DNA of 64,000 nucleotides from a virus. The translations under genes were made by a program, and so were the position numbers. This document shows positions 2,986 to 63,660 of this stretch, in pieces. The notes under the pieces were generated by a model that saw only the letters and a program-made list of their open reading frames with translations, had not been told where the DNA came from and made no database searches. The stretch lies in the IMG/VR virus record IMGVR_UViG_3300035184_000978, positions 1 to 64,000 of that record. One strand, given 5' to 3'. The stretch's first letter is position 1. Each line of letters begins with the position of its first letter.

Positions 2986-3321
2986 ATTATACAATTTAGC
3001 TGGCAGATAATGGGATTTGAAACATCAAACGAAATTAATTTCGAAGGAGTTGAACTTATTGACTCAGTTTTAAAAATCAGATGGAGACGAATAGGATCAA
3101 GTTTAGCTGGTACTACTTCTGTTATAACTGGTAAAAGCATTCTATCTGCTTATAACGTTGAAGCAGCCAGTTATATAACTTTTAAAAATATTACTGAAGA
3201 AGTTGGTATTAATTGGATTATATGTTCGTTGCAGCAAGAAAGATTAACTGAAATTGATCAAGAAATATCAGGTAGATTATCTGAAAATGAGAATATCAAA
3301 AAAATCACTTTTGGTTTGTAG
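2986..3321 (+). CDS. Paralogue of the preceding gene, probable ATT start
   Basis: The frame continues directly after the previous stop. The first ATG (3010) would cut off the residues QFSWQI that align with the TYKWEV opening of the upstream paralogue. A GGAG at 2976-2979 lies 6 bases before an ATT codon at 2986, so ATT is the best start, giving about 111 residues. The alignment (FSWQIMGFET against YKWEVTGLKV, then KIRWRRIGSS against QTYWKVTGTD) supports one fold. Function unknown; it is probably a virion or assembly protein co-expressed with its neighbour. Confidence 0.6.
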   Translation: MIQFSWQIMGFETSNEINFEGVELIDSVLKIRWRRIGSSLAGTTSVITGKSILSAYNVEAASYITFKNITEEVGINWIICSLQQERLTEIDQEISGRLSENENIKKITFGL

Positions 3322-48231: not shown

Positions 48232-49950
48232 TTACAAGCTTTCTAGCACACGTGTTCTAATTTCCTGTAATGTAGTTTCTCTTGTTAAAACACCGTTTGA
48301 GAAAACAGTTTTTAACAGACCTTGTTGTTCTTGCTCGGGTGTTTGCTGGTCATATAAGACAAATTGTCCATCTTCAAATTCAACTCTTAATAAACCTTTC
48401 GCTGACTTTTTATTAGGATCTGTTTTGGGGTCTTTGAATACATTAACACCTTTACCATTGCGTATCACATGAGTTGCCTTAACAGCAGAACCGTGAGTAT
48501 CGCGTGTAACATGTTGATATGAATAAGAACCAATACCTAGTACAACTAATGGAGCAAAACCTTTCGACATAAGTCTGCGATAGATTTCTTTTTGCCGAAT
48601 TAGTGTAATTGAATCACCATATATTGCACCGATTTGGTCAGCGAGTAATTTGAAACCTTTATCAGTTTCTCCACCCGGGAATTGATCGTATAAACATTCA
48701 ATCAGACCTTTATCTTCTGCTGATAATTCAACTTTATCGAATGTACAGTGACTAACATCACTACCCATATTATCAACGAAGTAATATTGCTTATCGTGTC
48801 GATTCAAATCAGGTTCGTATTTTACGTTGTATATGACGCCATCAATTGAGAATAAGCCGCCTTCACTATCATGTGGGTCTTCTGGGTCTAGGTTTTGAGT
48901 AAACTGATCGTTGAGTATATCAGCAACTTCTTCTTTGGATTCGGCAATACCAATTTCACGACCACATAATACTTCAACTGGGTCGCCAGTATCTGGGCGA
49001 ATAACAAGCTTACCTTCTCTTGCCATAATGTTATTTCTTATAGCAGGCAGACCTTTCTCAACGAATGACCAAAAGTCAAATGAATCTGATACATGAGATA
49101 TGATACCAGTCGGTACTTTTGTGAATAAGTATTTAACATATTCAATCTCTGCTTCAAGTTTAGAAACACCTTTTTCTTCAGCGTATGACATGATAAACGA
49201 GGTTGCTGTTGAATGTTCTGTTGCAGGAACAGATACACCAACTAATTCATTTTCAACATCTGCGTTATAATAATCTTCGGCGAACATAATAGCAGGTAAG
49301 GTATCTGTTCCTGCACTTGAACATAAATGACCAAAACCACTCATTGCTCCTGCTTGCTTACCAAACATACCTCTCATAGAGAAGTCATGGTTCATGAACA
49401 ATAATAAATCATTGTTGATACCAATATCATTAAACATTTTCTTTGTGTTTTTAAGATACGCTCGACTTGTAGTTGCGCTTGTTTGGATTCCCCAGTTTTC
49501 TGCAGAAGTTACTGTTTCTAAGTAGTTAGTCAACCAATTAAAATCGCTACCATTGTGCGTATTCAAGAATGTCATTGGTGGTACACCATAAGGTACAACT
49601 GAACCTTCGGGTAGCGCTTTAATTTCTATTGGTAAATAACCAAGTTTATGTAAAGCAATAAAATGGTCTACATTATATTCAAAACCTAATAATGCTTTTG
49701 TGTGTTTCTTGATATAAGCAATTGCTTCATCAAGAGGTATATTAAAGAATGTTTCGTTCCACGATTTGATGAGTGTGTCTTTTATAAAATACTGTAATCC
49801 TACAAATACAACACCATCAGAATCTACAGATTCTATGTTACTTAATCTTCCACTTCGACTTGTGTAGTTTGAGTACACTCGTGTTATTCCTTCGCGATAT
49901 GCTTCTTTGTGGAAAAGTTTATATGCATCTGTTGTTAAACTTGCGTTCAT
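48232..49950 (-). CDS. nadV: Nicotinamide phosphoribosyltransferase (NadV/NAMPT)
   Basis: 572 residues from the ATG at 49950 (AAGGATTTTATA upstream; the PRPP synthetase stop lies 11 bases before it). Family landmarks: LTTDAYKLFHKEAYREGITR, YSNYTSR, SAGTDTLPAIMFAEDYYNAD, the catalytic-His region VPATEHSTATS and the phosphate-binding RPDTGDPVEVL. It makes NMN from nicotinamide and PRPP. Being paired with a PRPP synthetase gives a compact NAD precursor salvage unit, seen in several large Vibrio/Aeromonas phages and linked to recovery from NAD-depleting defences. Confidence 0.94.
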   Translation of the reverse strand: MNASLTTDAYKLFHKEAYREGITRVYSNYTSRSGRLSNIESVDSDGVVFVGLQYFIKDTLIKSWNETFFNIPLDEAIAYIKKHTKALLGFEYNVDHFIALHKLGYLPIEIKALPEGSVVPYGVPPMTFLNTHNGSDFNWLTNYLETVTSAENWGIQTSATTSRAYLKNTKKMFNDIGINNDLLLFMNHDFSMRGMFGKQAGAMSGFGHLCSSAGTDTLPAIMFAEDYYNADVENELVGVSVPATEHSTATSFIMSYAEEKGVSKLEAEIEYVKYLFTKVPTGIISHVSDSFDFWSFVEKGLPAIRNNIMAREGKLVIRPDTGDPVEVLCGREIGIAESKEEVADILNDQFTQNLDPEDPHDSEGGLFSIDGVIYNVKYEPDLNRHDKQYYFVDNMGSDVSHCTFDKVELSAEDKGLIECLYDQFPGGETDKGFKLLADQIGAIYGDSITLIRQKEIYRRLMSKGFAPLVVLGIGSYSYQHVTRDTHGSAVKATHVIRNGKGVNVFKDPKTDPNKKSAKGLLRVEFEDGQFVLYDQQTPEQEQQGLLKTVFSNGVLTRETTLQEIRTRVLESL

Positions 49951-49960
49951 TATAAAATCC

Positions 49961-50791
49961 TTATTTAGCTTTTTCATTAAATTCAATCAAATCTTTACTA
50001 CTTACGTATTTTCCGATATGATTGCGTGTATAAATTTTGTCTATATCTTTTAGTATATCTAAACCCTTTGATCCAATTAAATGAGTTACAAATAATATAA
50101 CTTTACATCCGTGACTTTTTAATTCTTTTGCTAATGGGATAAATGTACCACCACCATCTAATATGTCATCTACGATAAAGACAGTAGAATTTGGTTTTGG
50201 TAATTTGTTGAGTTTAATACTTAAAATCTTTCCTGTGCTTATATCACGTATTTTGTCTGCTGTTAATAAAGGTATGTTGAGACTGAGTAGCGATAATTTT
50301 CCGGCTTTATATACCGAGCCTTTGTCTGGCGCAAGTATGTAATCTGGTTTAATTTTGTTAACAATCGGTAAAGCAATGTCAAATTGTTTTGTTTCTTCGA
50401 TTGGCAATTCATGATAACAATCAGATATGTATTCTGAATTATGAATATCATCTATGAAGATTTTATCAAAGTCGCATTTTTTTAACCATTCTAAAAACAT
50501 TGAAAGTGGATGTGCGTTACCTGTTTCAAAAACTCGGTCTGCTCTTGCGTGCGGCAAGTATGGTAGCATTAGACTGACATGCGACTCAAGACCATGATAG
50601 TTTTCATGTAGTGCAGATAAAACAAGATTAACTTCTTCGCGAATATCCGAAACAGAAGTTCTTGTATTGACTGATATTGAAATGTTTGTGGGATTTTCTG
50701 GTAAATCAATTATCTTGCATGTGCGCGCACCATCAGAAAACTGTACCCATTCTATTTTTACTTCTTGATTGCTAATAATTAATCCAATCAT
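49961..50791 (-). CDS. prs: Ribose-phosphate pyrophosphokinase (PRPP synthetase)
   Basis: 276 residues, shorter than the bacterial ~315. Landmarks: ATP-binding PYLPHARADRVFETG (bacterial PYxxYARQDR), LAPDKGS (cf. SPDAGG) and PRPP loop VFIVDDILDGGGTFIPLA. It makes PRPP from ribose-5-phosphate and ATP, feeding the NadV enzyme encoded next. First gene of the operon behind P19. Confidence 0.93.
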   Translation of the reverse strand: MIGLIISNQEVKIEWVQFSDGARTCKIIDLPENPTNISISVNTRTSVSDIREEVNLVLSALHENYHGLESHVSLMLPYLPHARADRVFETGNAHPLSMFLEWLKKCDFDKIFIDDIHNSEYISDCYHELPIEETKQFDIALPIVNKIKPDYILAPDKGSVYKAGKLSLLSLNIPLLTADKIRDISTGKILSIKLNKLPKPNSTVFIVDDILDGGGTFIPLAKELKSHGCKVILFVTHLIGSKGLDILKDIDKIYTRNHIGKYVSSKDLIEFNEKAK

Positions 50792-55591: not shown

Positions 55592-55664
55592 GATGACTGA
55601 CAGGATTCGAACCTGCGACATGACGCAATAAAAACCCTGATTTACCAGACTAAGCTACAATCAT
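55592..55664 (-). ncRNA. tRNA-like element with degenerate anticodon arm
   Basis: Acceptor ATGATTG/CAGTCAT, TA at 8-9, D-loop AGTCTGGTA and a perfect T-arm GCAGG-TTCGAAT-CCTGT are present. The middle (GGGTTTTTATTGCGTCA) does not form a 5-bp anticodon stem, so no isotype can be given. No encoded CCA. Either a decayed tRNA or an RNA with another role. Confidence 0.5.
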
Positions 55665-60080: not shown

Positions 60081-60157
60081 TGGCAAAGGTGGAGGGATTC
60101 GAACCCCCATCACGCGAGTTTGGAATCCGCTGTTCTACCAATTGGAACTACACCTTC
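60081..60157 (-). tRNA. tRNA-Trp (CCA)
   Basis: GAAGGTG/CACCTTT acceptor, G discriminator and encoded CCA. D-arm GTTC...GAAC, anticodon loop TTCCAAA, T-arm GGGGG-TTCGAAT-CCCTC. Trp-type body with G73. The anticodon stem has one A-C mismatch. Confidence 0.85.
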
Positions 60158-60760: not shown

Positions 60761-60921
60761 AGGATGTTCGTTATTACTATTGCTTCTTTACGATTTAAGG
60801 AAATACTATATTGGTCAATAAATCTTTGTTTGCATTCATGTTGTTGCCTTTTAATCAATGCGCCATTGTAATACATTTTTGTATAGTCTTCTATTGCTGG
60901 TTTAAAGTCTTCGTTTTTCAT
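60757..60921 (-). CDS. Small early protein coupled to the RNase H-like gene (54 aa)
   Basis: ATGA overlap with the upstream gene. MKNEDFKPAIEDYTKMYYNG then ALIKRQQHECKQRFIDQYSI; helical and basic. Function unknown. Confidence 0.6.
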   Translation of the reverse strand: MKNEDFKPAIEDYTKMYYNGALIKRQQHECKQRFIDQYSISLNRKEAIVITNIL

Positions 60922-61409
60922 GATATATGACGTTCATGTACTGGAGCTTTAGCGCAAACTAATTTTTTAAAACAATCAGCTGCTGAACTTGCGGCCCACG
61001 CGTTTGGTTTTACAAGTGGTTCAATTTGACAAGTACCTTTAATGTACCCTATCGCCTGAGTAACTACACAAGATGATCCGGCGTTGGGATTTGGATTAAT
61101 ATCCAGGTGTACAAAAGTTTCATACTCTATAATCTCAGGAGCCAATTTCAGATATAATTCAGAAGCTTTAATAACTTCGCTCATTAATCGCATTGCTGGC
61201 TTTTTGTTATTTACTTCATAATCTTTTTCACGGATGGTTTCACCAAATATCTTACAACCTTTTGAACCATCTAGGTGAACTACGACAACAACATTATAAT
61301 CAACAACACCTTTCTGACGTGATACTTTTTCAGAATCACAACCAATGTGAACAGTGGTTTTAGGACCTTGACTATTTACAAATTTTATTACCTCTTCTAA
61401 ATTTAACAC
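60918..61409 (-). CDS. YkuK/DUF458-like RNase H-fold protein
   Basis: 163 residues. TTVHIGCDSEKVSRQKG gives the first Asp strand, with VVVVVHLDGSKGCKIFGETI, then KKPAMRLMSEVIKASELYLK and a later VHLDINPNPNAGSS with the second acidic residue. This order matches the Bacillus YkuK family, predicted nucleases or RNA-binding RNase H-like proteins. It lies between the two tRNA groups, so a role in RNA processing is attractive but unproven. Confidence 0.7.
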   Translation of the reverse strand: MLNLEEVIKFVNSQGPKTTVHIGCDSEKVSRQKGVVDYNVVVVVHLDGSKGCKIFGETIREKDYEVNNKKPAMRLMSEVIKASELYLKLAPEIIEYETFVHLDINPNPNAGSSCVVTQAIGYIKGTCQIEPLVKPNAWAASSAADCFKKLVCAKAPVHERHIS

Positions 61410-61437: not shown

Positions 61438-61502
61438 TGGTAGGTCTGGACGGAATCTAACTGCAATGTAAAAACAGTTCGATTCCCCTCAGCTACAGGC
61501 CT
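61438..61502 (-). ncRNA. Compact tRNA-like RNA with CCA end and long central hairpin
   Basis: Acceptor AGGCCTG/CAGACCT (one mismatch), A discriminator and encoded CCA. Inside, GGAATCGAACTG pairs with CAGTTAGATTCC (11 of 12) around an 11-base loop, leaving no D- or T-arm of normal shape. 65 bases in all. Either an armless tRNA or a tRNA-derived stem RNA. Confidence 0.45.
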
Positions 61503-61507
61503 AAAAA

Positions 61508-61631: not shown

Positions 61632-61720
61632 TGGCAGAAGGCATCGGTTTCTGGTCGGGACTGTGTTATCGACAATATAGTTTAGCAAACTGCTCCAGTT
61701 CCCCGACTGGTTTACCTTCT
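61632..61720 (-). ncRNA. Class-II tRNA-like element, GCT-like anticodon loop
   Basis: AGAAGGT/GCCTTCT acceptor, G discriminator and CCA, 89 bases as in Ser/Leu tRNAs. D-stem CCAG/CTGG and loop TTGCTAA (anticodon GCT, Ser) can be drawn, but no T-arm forms; instead GTCGGG of the D region can pair with CCCGAC near the 3' side. Decayed tRNA-Ser or pseudoknotted RNA. Confidence 0.45.
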
Positions 61721-61725
61721 AAAAA

Positions 61726-61801
61726 TGGAGCGTCTATCCAGATTCGAACTGGAAACTGCAGGGTGGAAGCCTGTTGTGTTGCCGTTAAACACCATAGACG
61801 C
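61726..61801 (-). tRNA. tRNA-Gly (TCC)
   Basis: GCGTCTA/TAGACGC acceptor, T discriminator, encoded CCA. Anticodon loop CTTCCAC, T-arm with canonical TTCGAAT. Body like bacterial tRNA-Gly. Confidence 0.85.
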
Positions 61802-61824
61802 TTTAAACTTTTTCAAATATAATT

Positions 61825-61897
61825 AGGGTGGACAACGATTCAGCAGATGTGGAATAACAACCGGGAGCTTTTCCAATTAAGCTACGACCACACCCTA
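61825..61897 (-). ncRNA. tRNA-like element with good D-arm, broken anticodon and T arms
   Basis: D-arm TA-GCTT-AATTGGAA-AAGC is canonical and outer bases TAGGGTG/CACCCTA pair. The anticodon region CCCGG-TTGTTAT-TCCAC (loop reads GTT) has only two pairs. The T region contains AATCGTTG instead of TTCGA. No CCA. Probably a decaying tRNA. Confidence 0.45.
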
Positions 61898-62453: not shown

Positions 62454-62541
62454 TGGAGGAAGGTAGAGTAATCGAAACCCCAACGTTTTACCGATGCCCA
62501 AGGGTTCAAACCTTGTTGCCTACCATTTAGCGGTACCTTCC
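62454..62541 (-). tRNA. tRNA-Ser (TGA)
   Basis: GGAAGGT/ACCTTCC acceptor, encoded CCA, 5-bp anticodon stem CAAGG-TTTGAAC-CCTTG, long variable arm and T-loop TTCGATT. Discriminator is T where Ser tRNAs normally have G, which may weaken charging. Confidence 0.8.
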
Positions 62542-62648: not shown

Positions 62649-62723
62649 TGGTGCCGATTAGAGGTAACGATCCCCTATCCCCAGATTACAAAACTGGTGC
62701 ATCACCATCAATGCTTAATCGGC
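62649..62723 (-). tRNA. tRNA-Thr (TGT) with exchanged T-loop and D-loop contacts
   Basis: GCCGATT/AATCGGC, A discriminator and CCA as in Thr tRNAs. Anticodon loop TTTGTAA. Position 8 is A and 14 is T (D-arm GCAT-TGATGGTG-ATGC). T-arm AGGGG-ATCGTTA-CCTCT, where T54 and A58 are swapped to A54 and T58. All stems pair, so it looks functional rather than decayed. Confidence 0.75.
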
Positions 62724-62769
62724 TAAACTTTGGTAGCAATTCAACGCTACATATGTGCTCTTACAATAT

Positions 62770-62859
62770 TGGCGGACGGGGTTGGGTTCGAACCAACGAT
62801 GGGGATAAATCCTCGGCAGGTTAACAGCCTGCTGCCTTCAACCACTCGGCCACCCGTCC
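62770..62859 (-). tRNA. Class-II tRNA with Ser-type body and anticodon GTT
   Basis: GGACGGG/CCCGTCC, G73, CCA, D-arm GCCG-AGTGGTTGAA-GGC and a long variable arm are all tRNA-Ser features. The perfect anticodon stem-loop GCAGG-CTGTTAA-CCTGC reads GTT (Asn codons), one base away from the Ser GCT loop CTGCTAA. T-loop TTCGAAC is normal. Confidence 0.8.
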
Positions 62860-62875
62860 TAAATTTTTATTAAAA

Positions 62876-63030
62876 ATATTTTCTGTATGCCACTCGAATC
62901 TAACAAGTTACCAGGTAACCATGTAACCATCCCAGCTTATCCGATACATATGTTCCATTGCGGTTACAACGGTAATGTATGTTCACGCGATAGTCGATTC
63001 AAACTACAGCTTAGACATACAGAAAATATT
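62876..63030 (-). ncRNA. 155-base structured RNA closed by a perfect 15-bp stem
   Basis: AATATTTTCTGTATG (minus 5') pairs perfectly with CATACAGAAAATATT. Internal hairpins include ACTTG-TTAGATT-CGAGT, which is T-arm-like, and GTTACCTGGTAAC. First element after promoter P27. Not matched to any RNA family I know; a split or intron-bearing tRNA is possible. Confidence 0.5.
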
Positions 63031-63054
63031 CTTCTTTCCTGATTTGATGAAACT

Positions 63055-63083
63055 ATTATATCACACATAATAGTTAATGTCAA
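63055..63083 (-). promoter_or_regulatory. Early promoter P27 within the tRNA cluster
   Basis: TTGACA, 17 bp, TATAAT; starts transcription just before the 155-base RNA element. Confidence 0.85.
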
Positions 63084-63101
63084 CACTTATTTTATTAAAT
63101 T

Positions 63102-63173
63102 TGGTGGAGCCAAACGGTAACGATCCGTTCCATCCGTGGTGCAAGCACAGAGTCAATCCCATAAAGTGGCCCC
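63102..63173 (-). tRNA. tRNA-Ala (TGC) with reduced D-arm and exchanged T-loop
   Basis: GGGGCCA/TGGCTCC, A73, CCA: Ala body. Anticodon loop CTTGCAC on a 5-bp stem. T-arm AACGG-ATCGTTA-CCGTT. Between acceptor and anticodon stem only 16 bases remain (CTTTATGGGATTGACT), too few for a standard D-arm. The acceptor shows a G-U at position 3-70 (GGGG/CTCC), the classical Ala identity pair. Confidence 0.7.
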
Positions 63174-63212
63174 AAATCGTTAGTAAACTGTATTCTTCAA
63201 CAATTTACATAA

Positions 63213-63287
63213 TGCATCCCGTACCAGATTCGAACTGGTGTTGCCGCCGTGAAAGGGCAGAGTTCTAGGCCTCTAAACTAACGGGAT
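63213..63287 (-). tRNA. tRNA-Glu (TTC)
   Basis: ATCCCGT/ACGGGAT acceptor with G73 followed by CAT rather than CCA. Anticodon loop CTTTCAC on a GCC/GGC-rich stem, D-arm GTTT-AGAGGCCTAG, T-loop TTCGAAT. Strong match to bacterial tRNA-Glu. Confidence 0.85.
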
Positions 63288-63296
63288 AAACTGTTG

Positions 63297-63367
63297 TGGG
63301 TCGGGAGGTAACGATCCTCCTTCAGTAGACTTTTAATCTAGTGCATCACTATTAATGCTTCGAACCC
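63297..63367 (-). tRNA. tRNA with anticodon AAA (Phe codon) and exchanged T- and D-loops
   Basis: GGGTTCG pairs with CGACCC with one bulge; A73, no CCA. A8 with T14 (D-arm GCAT-TAATAGTG-ATGC) and T-arm GGAGG-ATCGTTA-CCTCC. The anticodon stem-loop CTAGA-TTAAAAG-TCTAC reads AAA. The acceptor is Lys-like, and the complement of the loop would be a normal Lys loop, so isotype is uncertain. Confidence 0.55.
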
Positions 63368-63373
63368 GTAATG

Positions 63374-63447
63374 TCAGAGAGGTAGGATTCGAACCTACGA
63401 CCACTCGCGTCCAAGGCGAGTACGCTACCAGACTGCGCTACTCTCTG
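63374..63447 (-). tRNA. tRNA-Pro (TGG)
   Basis: CAGAGAG/CTCTCTG, TA-GCGC-AGTCTGGTA-GCG, anticodon CTCGC-CTTGGAC-GCGAG, T-loop TTCGAAT. Canonical throughout; CCA not encoded. Confidence 0.88.
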
Positions 63448-63454
63448 TATTCTT

Positions 63455-63530
63455 TGGTGGCCCAGCCTAGATTCGAACTAGGAATAAACGATTATGAGTC
63501 GCATGTGTTAACCAATTACACCACCGGGCC
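63455..63530 (-). tRNA. tRNA with CAT anticodon, Ile2-like
   Basis: GGCCCGG/CTGGGCC, A73, CCA. Anticodon TGCGA-CTCATAA-TCGTT; this GCGACTCATAATCG core matches bacterial tRNA-Ile2 (lysidine-modified CAT, reads AUA) better than elongator Met. T-loop canonical. It would help decode the AUA-rich phage genes. Confidence 0.8.
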
Positions 63531-63542
63531 ATCATTACTCTT

Positions 63543-63577
63543 TGGTACCAGTTACTAAACTAAACTAAACTGGTACA
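63543..63577 (-). other. Spacer hairpin between tRNA-Asp and tRNA-Ile2
   Basis: GTACCAGTT...AACTGGTAC (9 bp) around a loop with TTTAG repeated three times. Likely a tRNA precursor processing signal. Confidence 0.5.
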
Positions 63578-63585
63578 TTTAAATT

Positions 63586-63660
63586 TGGCGGGAATGAAGG
63601 GTTACGATCCCTCTTCTCTGACGTGACAGGCCAGCATAATAACCAGTATACTACACTCCC
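63586..63660 (-). tRNA. tRNA-Asp (GTC) with exchanged T-loop
   Basis: GGGAGTG/CATTCCC, G73, CCA. Normal T8 and A14 D-arm (GTAT-ACTGGTTATT-ATGC). Anticodon CTGGC-CTGTCAC-GTCAG. T-arm GAGGG-ATCGTAA-CCCTT: A54 and T58 instead of T54 and A58. First gene behind P28. Confidence 0.78.

Follow-up and report, generated by a model that had tools for sequence, protein, structure and literature searches.

An alternative T-loop with A54 and A60 recurs among tRNAs encoded by phages

The window analyzed here (64 kb out of a 65,268-base virus record) contains T4-type head and tail genes, and its major head protein shows 67% identity to its counterpart in Sinorhizobium phage phiM12 and relatives. The last 4 kb of the window are occupied by a minus-strand tRNA cluster. 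A scan of the window for T-arms (5-bp arms with 7-base loops) identifies, among normal arms, exactly four arms in this cluster that carry A54 and T58 in place of T54 and A58 (hereinafter, swapped), at 62671, 63124, 63315 and 63608, all on the minus strand and each with 5/5 stem pairs. The same DNA was searched with ARAGORN, Rfam and a covariance model, R1, derived from 35 swapped tRNAs of other phages with the window left out. The tRNA genes and tRNA-like matches are the following:

62649..62723, minus strand: tRNA-Thr(UGU), swapped T-arm AGGGG-ATCGTTA-CCTCT (loop 62671-62665), A8/T14, G21, encoded CCA; ARAGORN, Rfam (45.0 bits), R1 (57.3 bits), T-arm scan
63102..63173, minus strand: tRNA-Ala(UGC), swapped T-arm AACGG-ATCGTTA-CCGTT (loop 63124-63118), G3-U70 in the acceptor, encoded CCA, shortened and unpaired D-arm; R1 (34.8 bits), T-arm scan, undetected by ARAGORN and Rfam; nearest bodies are tRNA-Ala
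63297..63367, minus strand: AAA-anticodon tRNA-like gene (anticodon doubtful), swapped T-arm GGAGG-ATCGTTA-CCTCC (loop 63315-63309), A8/T14, one-base acceptor-stem bulge, A18 replacing G18, no CCA; R1 (43.4 bits), T-arm scan, fold z -3.1
63586..63660, minus strand: tRNA-Asp(GUC), swapped T-arm GAGGG-ATCGTAA-CCCTT (loop 63608-63602), normal T8/A14, encoded CCA; ARAGORN, Rfam (48.6 bits), R1 (50.5 bits)
62770..62859, minus strand: tRNA-Asn(GUU), normal T-loop TTCGAAC; ARAGORN, Rfam, T-arm scan
63214..63287, minus strand: tRNA-Glu(UUC), normal T-loop; ARAGORN, Rfam, T-arm scan
63373..63447, minus strand: tRNA-Pro(UGG), normal T-loop; ARAGORN, Rfam, T-arm scan
63455..63530, minus strand: tRNA-Met(CAU), normal T-loop; ARAGORN, Rfam, T-arm scan
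61726..61801, minus strand: tRNA-Gly(UCC), normal T-loop; ARAGORN, Rfam, T-arm scan
60081..60157, minus strand: tRNA-Trp(CCA), normal T-loop; ARAGORN, Rfam, T-arm scan
62454..62541, minus strand: tRNA-Ser(UGA), long variable arm, normal T-loop TTCGATT; T-arm scan, undetected by ARAGORN
55592-55664, minus strand: weak tRNA match, the ninth (33 bits), located 4 kb upstream of the main cluster, with the normal T-loop TTCGAAT

The four top matches of model R1 in the window are the four swapped loci, the next best reaching 26.1 bits; ARAGORN and Rfam detect only the Thr and Asp genes among the four. The scan and the model, the latter a check proposed in the sequence-only reading of this DNA, thus confirm the description given there of four tRNAs with ATCGTTA or ATCGTAA loops on intact 5-bp stems. 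The same reading counted six neighbors with normal loops; these neighbors are indeed normal, but there are at least eight, including tRNA-Ser(UGA) and the weak match at 55592-55664. Where canonical tRNAs (T54, U55, C56, R57, A58, Y60) combine a T54-A58 reverse-Hoogsteen pair with Y60, the four genes have A54, T58 and A60, and the presence of T58 sets them apart from the A54/A58 pairing of the eukaryotic type. All four loops begin with ATC, so that U55 and C56, the partners of G18 and G19, are kept; G18G19 is present in the Thr and Asp genes. That these tRNAs cannot receive m5U54, as previously noted, is a direct consequence of A54. The four genes are of unequal standing because Thr and Asp fit the cloverleaf in model R1, Ala has lost the paired D-stem, and the AAA gene, which is probably decaying, combines A18 with the acceptor bulge and the missing CCA.

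The cluster encompasses several additional elements, all on the minus strand. At 62883-63022, there is a structured RNA of about 140 nt (fold z -2.4) with an acceptor-like closing stem of 7-9 bp (CTGTATG..CATACAG) and a T-arm-like element with the loop TTAGATT immediately ahead of the 3' strand of that stem; in size and location, it is reminiscent of the tRNA-like stable RNAs annotated in the tRNA clusters of T4 (RNA C, D) and T5 (RNA1, RNA2). A 65-nt element at 61439-61503, with an acceptor-like stem that is nearly complete and with the T-loop-like TTAGATT, folds instead as one long hairpin (fold z -3.0). The sequence at 61632-61720 resembles tRNA-Ser(GCU), with a 7-bp acceptor, G73, CCA and the anticodon loop TTGCTAA, has no recognizable T-arm and is negative in ARAGORN and Rfam; a degenerate tRNA-like sequence at 61824-61896 has a good D-arm and a GTT-like anticodon region, without a proper T-arm. 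The protein encoded between tRNA genes at 60918-61409 contains an RNase H-like domain (PF04308, 2.7e-13; phrog_11311), and no close relative of it was found among viral contigs. Outside the cluster, the gene at 48232-49986 encodes a phage nicotinamide phosphoribosyltransferase (phrog_448, 2.4e-171), possibly an NAD+ salvage gene.

Searches of a phage collection started with the window Thr and Asp tRNAs identify the swapped loop in a 642-kb uncultured phage, which has four such tRNAs (Val-UAC, Ile-GAU, Thr-UGU and Val-GAC), and in tRNA-Phe of Pseudomonas phage K5. The cultured Pakpunavirus phages PAK_P1 and K5 both carry this loop in tRNA-Phe, as does a PAK_P1-type sequence (L165), and the K5 tRNA-Phe used as a query matches 104 records, 48 of these at a level of at least 99%. 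Other examples are tRNA-Phe of Aeromonas phage TS3 and tRNA-Ile of Klebsiella phage K32PH164C1. A search with a specific Thr pattern gave 0 matches. A scan of IMG/VR with a tRNA-shaped pattern containing the swapped loop (at least 120 stretches), followed by ARAGORN on these stretches, yields at least 214 A54/T58 tRNAs in at least 115 loci and of at least 19 isotypes; among the matches listed, the loop forms are ATCGTTA (164), ATCGTAA (24), ATCGTTC (10) and a few others. In a control sample of 118 other loci drawn by the normal loop, A54/T58 is present in 13 of the 485 tRNAs not used for drawing, and in 6 of the 42 arrays with five or more tRNAs. Most array members have normal loops, the swapped share amounting to a minority of 2.7-6% of the tRNAs. 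Hence the swapped loop represents a class of T-loop that recurs in phage tRNAs, and sequencing error in the window is excluded as its general cause, given that the loop is common to unrelated phages and cultured isolates. T4, T5, 44RR2.8t and Aeromonas phage 65 were found to have normal loops only, which may be the reason why the trait went unnoticed; no earlier description of a swapped phage T-loop was found in the open-access papers searched.

The U54-A58 pair is regarded as near-invariant and essential for the T-loop fold. Among neighboring tRNAs that played no part in locating the loci, the 54/58 states are T/A in 1797, A/T in 95, A/A in 31, G/G in 6 and T/T in 1; these counts come from related sequences and are descriptive only, since significance values that ignore shared ancestry overstate independence. 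A T-arm scan independent of ARAGORN, with the opposite strand as background, reproduces this picture, which rules out a bias of that program as the cause of the coupling; the CTCATAA "loops" that it returns are Met anticodon arms, not T-loops. The previously reported joint change of 54 and 58 stands, with the correction that position 60 (T to A) is a third coupled site. A60 is found in 69 of the 88 A/T loops and 32 of the 33 A/A loops, compared to about 3% of T/A loops, 97% of which have a pyrimidine at this position. The swapped class also gives up the canonical Levitt pair 15-48 (G-C or A-U) more often than not: the pair is retained in 18/83 A/T and 1/26 A/A tRNAs versus 851/1188 T/A tRNAs, and in 14 of 50 A/T versus 293 of 460 normal tRNAs when the same isotypes are compared after removal of redundancy at 70%. 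Class II tRNAs (Leu, Ser, Tyr) are nearly exempt, with 3/373 swapped compared to 92/1519 among the others; this scarcity is a structural limit, the class II core being different. Some of the Asp, Lys and Thr lineages, the window Thr and AAA genes among them, also have a reversed 8-14 pair (A8/T14). The loops ATCGAAA and ATCGATA, with A54/A58/A60, are present in 30 phage tRNAs. A further alternative class, G54/G58/A60 (GTCGGAA), occurs in well-formed tRNA-Phe, Asp and Glu, mostly with CCA (e.g., L209, L210, L344 and L427).

Conservation of the remainder of the molecule bears on whether these are working tRNAs. In an equal-length alignment of 35 non-redundant swapped phage tRNAs, 98.2% of the cloverleaf stem cells are paired, 318 cells are changed on both sides compared to 55-82 when the partners are slid, and 20 of the 21 pairs are doubly changed. 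A complete 7/7 acceptor is present in 92% of swapped and 87% of normal phage tRNAs, and CCA is encoded in 80% and 84%, respectively. Because the cloverleaf is kept with compensatory changes, and the acceptor and CCA match the quality of normal tRNAs, the swapped class as a whole is, as judged from these alignments, under selection as tRNA. Decay or pseudogenization of surplus phage tRNA genes could be invoked for the window AAA gene (A18, bulged acceptor, no CCA) and for Ala with its broken D-arm, and these additional defects do fit partial decay. As an account of the swapped loop, however, decay is disfavored and highly improbable: over the phages as a whole, swapped tRNAs are no less well formed than normal ones, the stems strongly covary, the same specific triplet of changes appears each time, and T54/T58 is essentially never seen. 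The original claim of covariation rather than random decay is therefore strongly supported, and the covariation reaches position 60 and the 15/48 pair, with stem compensation across phages.

When the T-loop is masked, the nearest neighbor of a swapped tRNA is of the same isotype in 183 of 210 cases; it is swapped in 138 and has a normal loop in 60. One possible source of the pattern is a single tRNA family disseminated by horizontal transfer, with switching of anticodons, in which case the covariation would reflect one event. The Ile-GAU, Thr-GGU and His tRNAs, like one Asp lineage, do group with swapped relatives (48/55 for Ile, 19/26 for Asp), and Ile, Thr, His and this Asp lineage are, on the evidence of these comparisons, old swapped lineages. 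The predominance of same-isotype neighbors runs against a single family, as does the finding that, for Gly, Val, Lys, Gln, Asn, Leu, Ser, Pro and Arg, the nearest relative of a swapped tRNA is often a normal-loop tRNA of its own isotype; these cases look like separate origins. The tRNA-Phe orthologs, too, differ between Pakpunavirus (ATCGTTA) and Otagovirus (CTCGATA), both with A60. The Otagovirus gene is an unannotated tRNA-Phe in VCM, PHB09 and Kremar (L475-L477, locus ~2994-3069). A single spreading family is thus barely credible, and the swapped elbow probably arose many times. The nearest body of the window Asp tRNA is the normal-loop tRNA-Asp of Aeromonas phage 65, and the window Thr is nearest to normal-loop Thr tRNAs, so the swap in these two genes looks derived. 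Normal closest relatives for two of the four window tRNAs are what is expected of a derived swap, and errors in this sequence fail as a blanket explanation, given that unrelated phages share the loop. With regard to the earlier statement that the change occurred four times, four genes are indeed swapped, and four independent events are unproven, although the closest relatives of Asp and Thr have normal loops. Given that T54/T58 is rare and that A54/A58/A60 does occur, the suggested order of change is 54 and 60 first, followed by 58.

Bacterial chromosomes were considered as a source. In 398 Pseudomonadota and 398 Bacillota genomes, the sole swapped tRNA lies in an array of the genome chosen as the center, and the other pattern matches are not tRNAs; none was found in 794 random bacterial genomes with the pattern used, the GG/CC ATCGTTA form alone, so that rarer forms are possible in bacteria. 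Of the 120 pattern matches listed in a scan of genome contigs, few are tRNAs, and most of those belong to dense tRNA arrays. An origin from host tRNAs is unsupported in the 794 random genomes and, as far as sampled, bacterial chromosomes are not the source.

In the standard loop, the 54-58 pair stacks on G53-C61, and residues 59 and 60 are pushed out (PMC7912444); by this geometry, the changes at 54, 58, 60 and 15/48 are physically adjacent. We consider it likely that these phage tRNAs are elongators whose elbow is of an alternative, internally compensated kind, which arose many times and is tolerated or mildly favored. In the loops described above, A54 replaces U54 along with A60, and A58 usually gives way to U58 as well. 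Within the same edge geometry, A54-U58 and U54-A58 pairs are not isosteric, and pairing of 54 and 58 in the swapped loop is accordingly a structural prediction: the two residues may still close the T-loop by a rearranged pair (swapped A-U, or A-A, G-G, C-A), with A60 and a rearranged 15/48 layer accommodating the altered geometry and U55-G18 and C56-G19 still locking the elbow. Such a tRNA would fold, be charged and decode without m5U54. The probable route leads via A54/A58/A60 intermediates, which have the loop of the eukaryotic initiator tRNA, and the swapped state would then persist in phage tRNA lineages and spread with mobile tRNA arrays. Tolerance or mild advantage could come from the brief action of phage tRNAs, which need not pass all T-loop quality control of the host.

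A different cause would be selected escape, whereby a host, defense or rival factor that recognizes T54-Psi55 or the loop with U54-A58 (either a T-loop nuclease or m5U/Psi-dependent surveillance) fails to read the swapped loop, so that these tRNAs survive cutting. One known nuclease, CdiA-CT E479, cuts between T54 and Psi55 (PMC9086364), and phage tRNAs evade anticodon nucleases via mutations in the anticodon loop (PMC10264068). Either a phage-specific benefit or a relaxed constraint is suggested by the many origins in phages, set against none in the 794 bacterial genomes. We know of no isotype-restricted T-loop nuclease matching Ile, Asp, Thr and His. Swapped tRNAs are only a minority in each array, which means that other codons would still bring translation to a halt, and a purely structural cause would itself predict the coupling to 15/48. 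Escape by this route is thus improbable: it is unsupported here, and it is not the leading explanation because normal loops prevail in the same arrays, leaving the phage tRNA set unprotected. It is similarly doubtful that a second elbow architecture (R54, A60 and a non-Levitt 15/48 layer), unmethylatable at 54, evolved repeatedly and was kept for its invisibility to a T-loop-reading host or rival factor.

The compensated elbow, our preferred interpretation, has partial parallels. In eukaryotic tRNA-Ala, A54/A58 always goes with R15/A48 and R60, and unusual 54/58 and 15/48 pairs have been described as unseen in bacterial or archaeal tRNAs (PMC7566577). The phage class resembles cytosolic tRNA-Ala(AGC) in having A54 for T54 and a purine at 60 and in losing the 15-48 pair alongside (PMC7566577), but in the eukaryotic case 58 stays A (m1A58) and a single isotype is involved, in animals, whereas here U58 is usual and 19 isotypes are involved, in phages. 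The phage A54/A58/A60 loops are of the same kind as that of the eukaryotic initiator tRNA (A54, A58, A60; AUCGAAA) and resemble an intermediate; the phage molecules, however, are elongators of many isotypes with U58 as the main state. Phage tRNAs that escape nucleases by changes in the anticodon loop (PMC10264068) or evade retrons (PMC11555353) likewise deviate at positions read by host enzymes; in the present case, the deviation is in the elbow, not the anticodon loop, and escape is only hypothetical. Mitochondrial tRNAs with degenerate T- and D-loops also lose conserved elbow positions, but the swapped phage class keeps U55, C56 and G18/G19 and has a specific, conserved substitute.

Taken together, these observations reveal a natural, recurrent and compensated exception to U54-A58, common among phages and undetected in the sampled bacterial chromosomes. 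Phage tRNA counts obtained with standard tools are too low because the window AAA and Ala genes are missed by ARAGORN and the Otagovirus orthologs are unannotated. The finding opens questions on how tertiary contacts change together, on the importance of m5U54 and on the enzymes that read the T-loop, and direct testing is possible, given that cultured P. aeruginosa phages carry the swapped tRNA-Phe.
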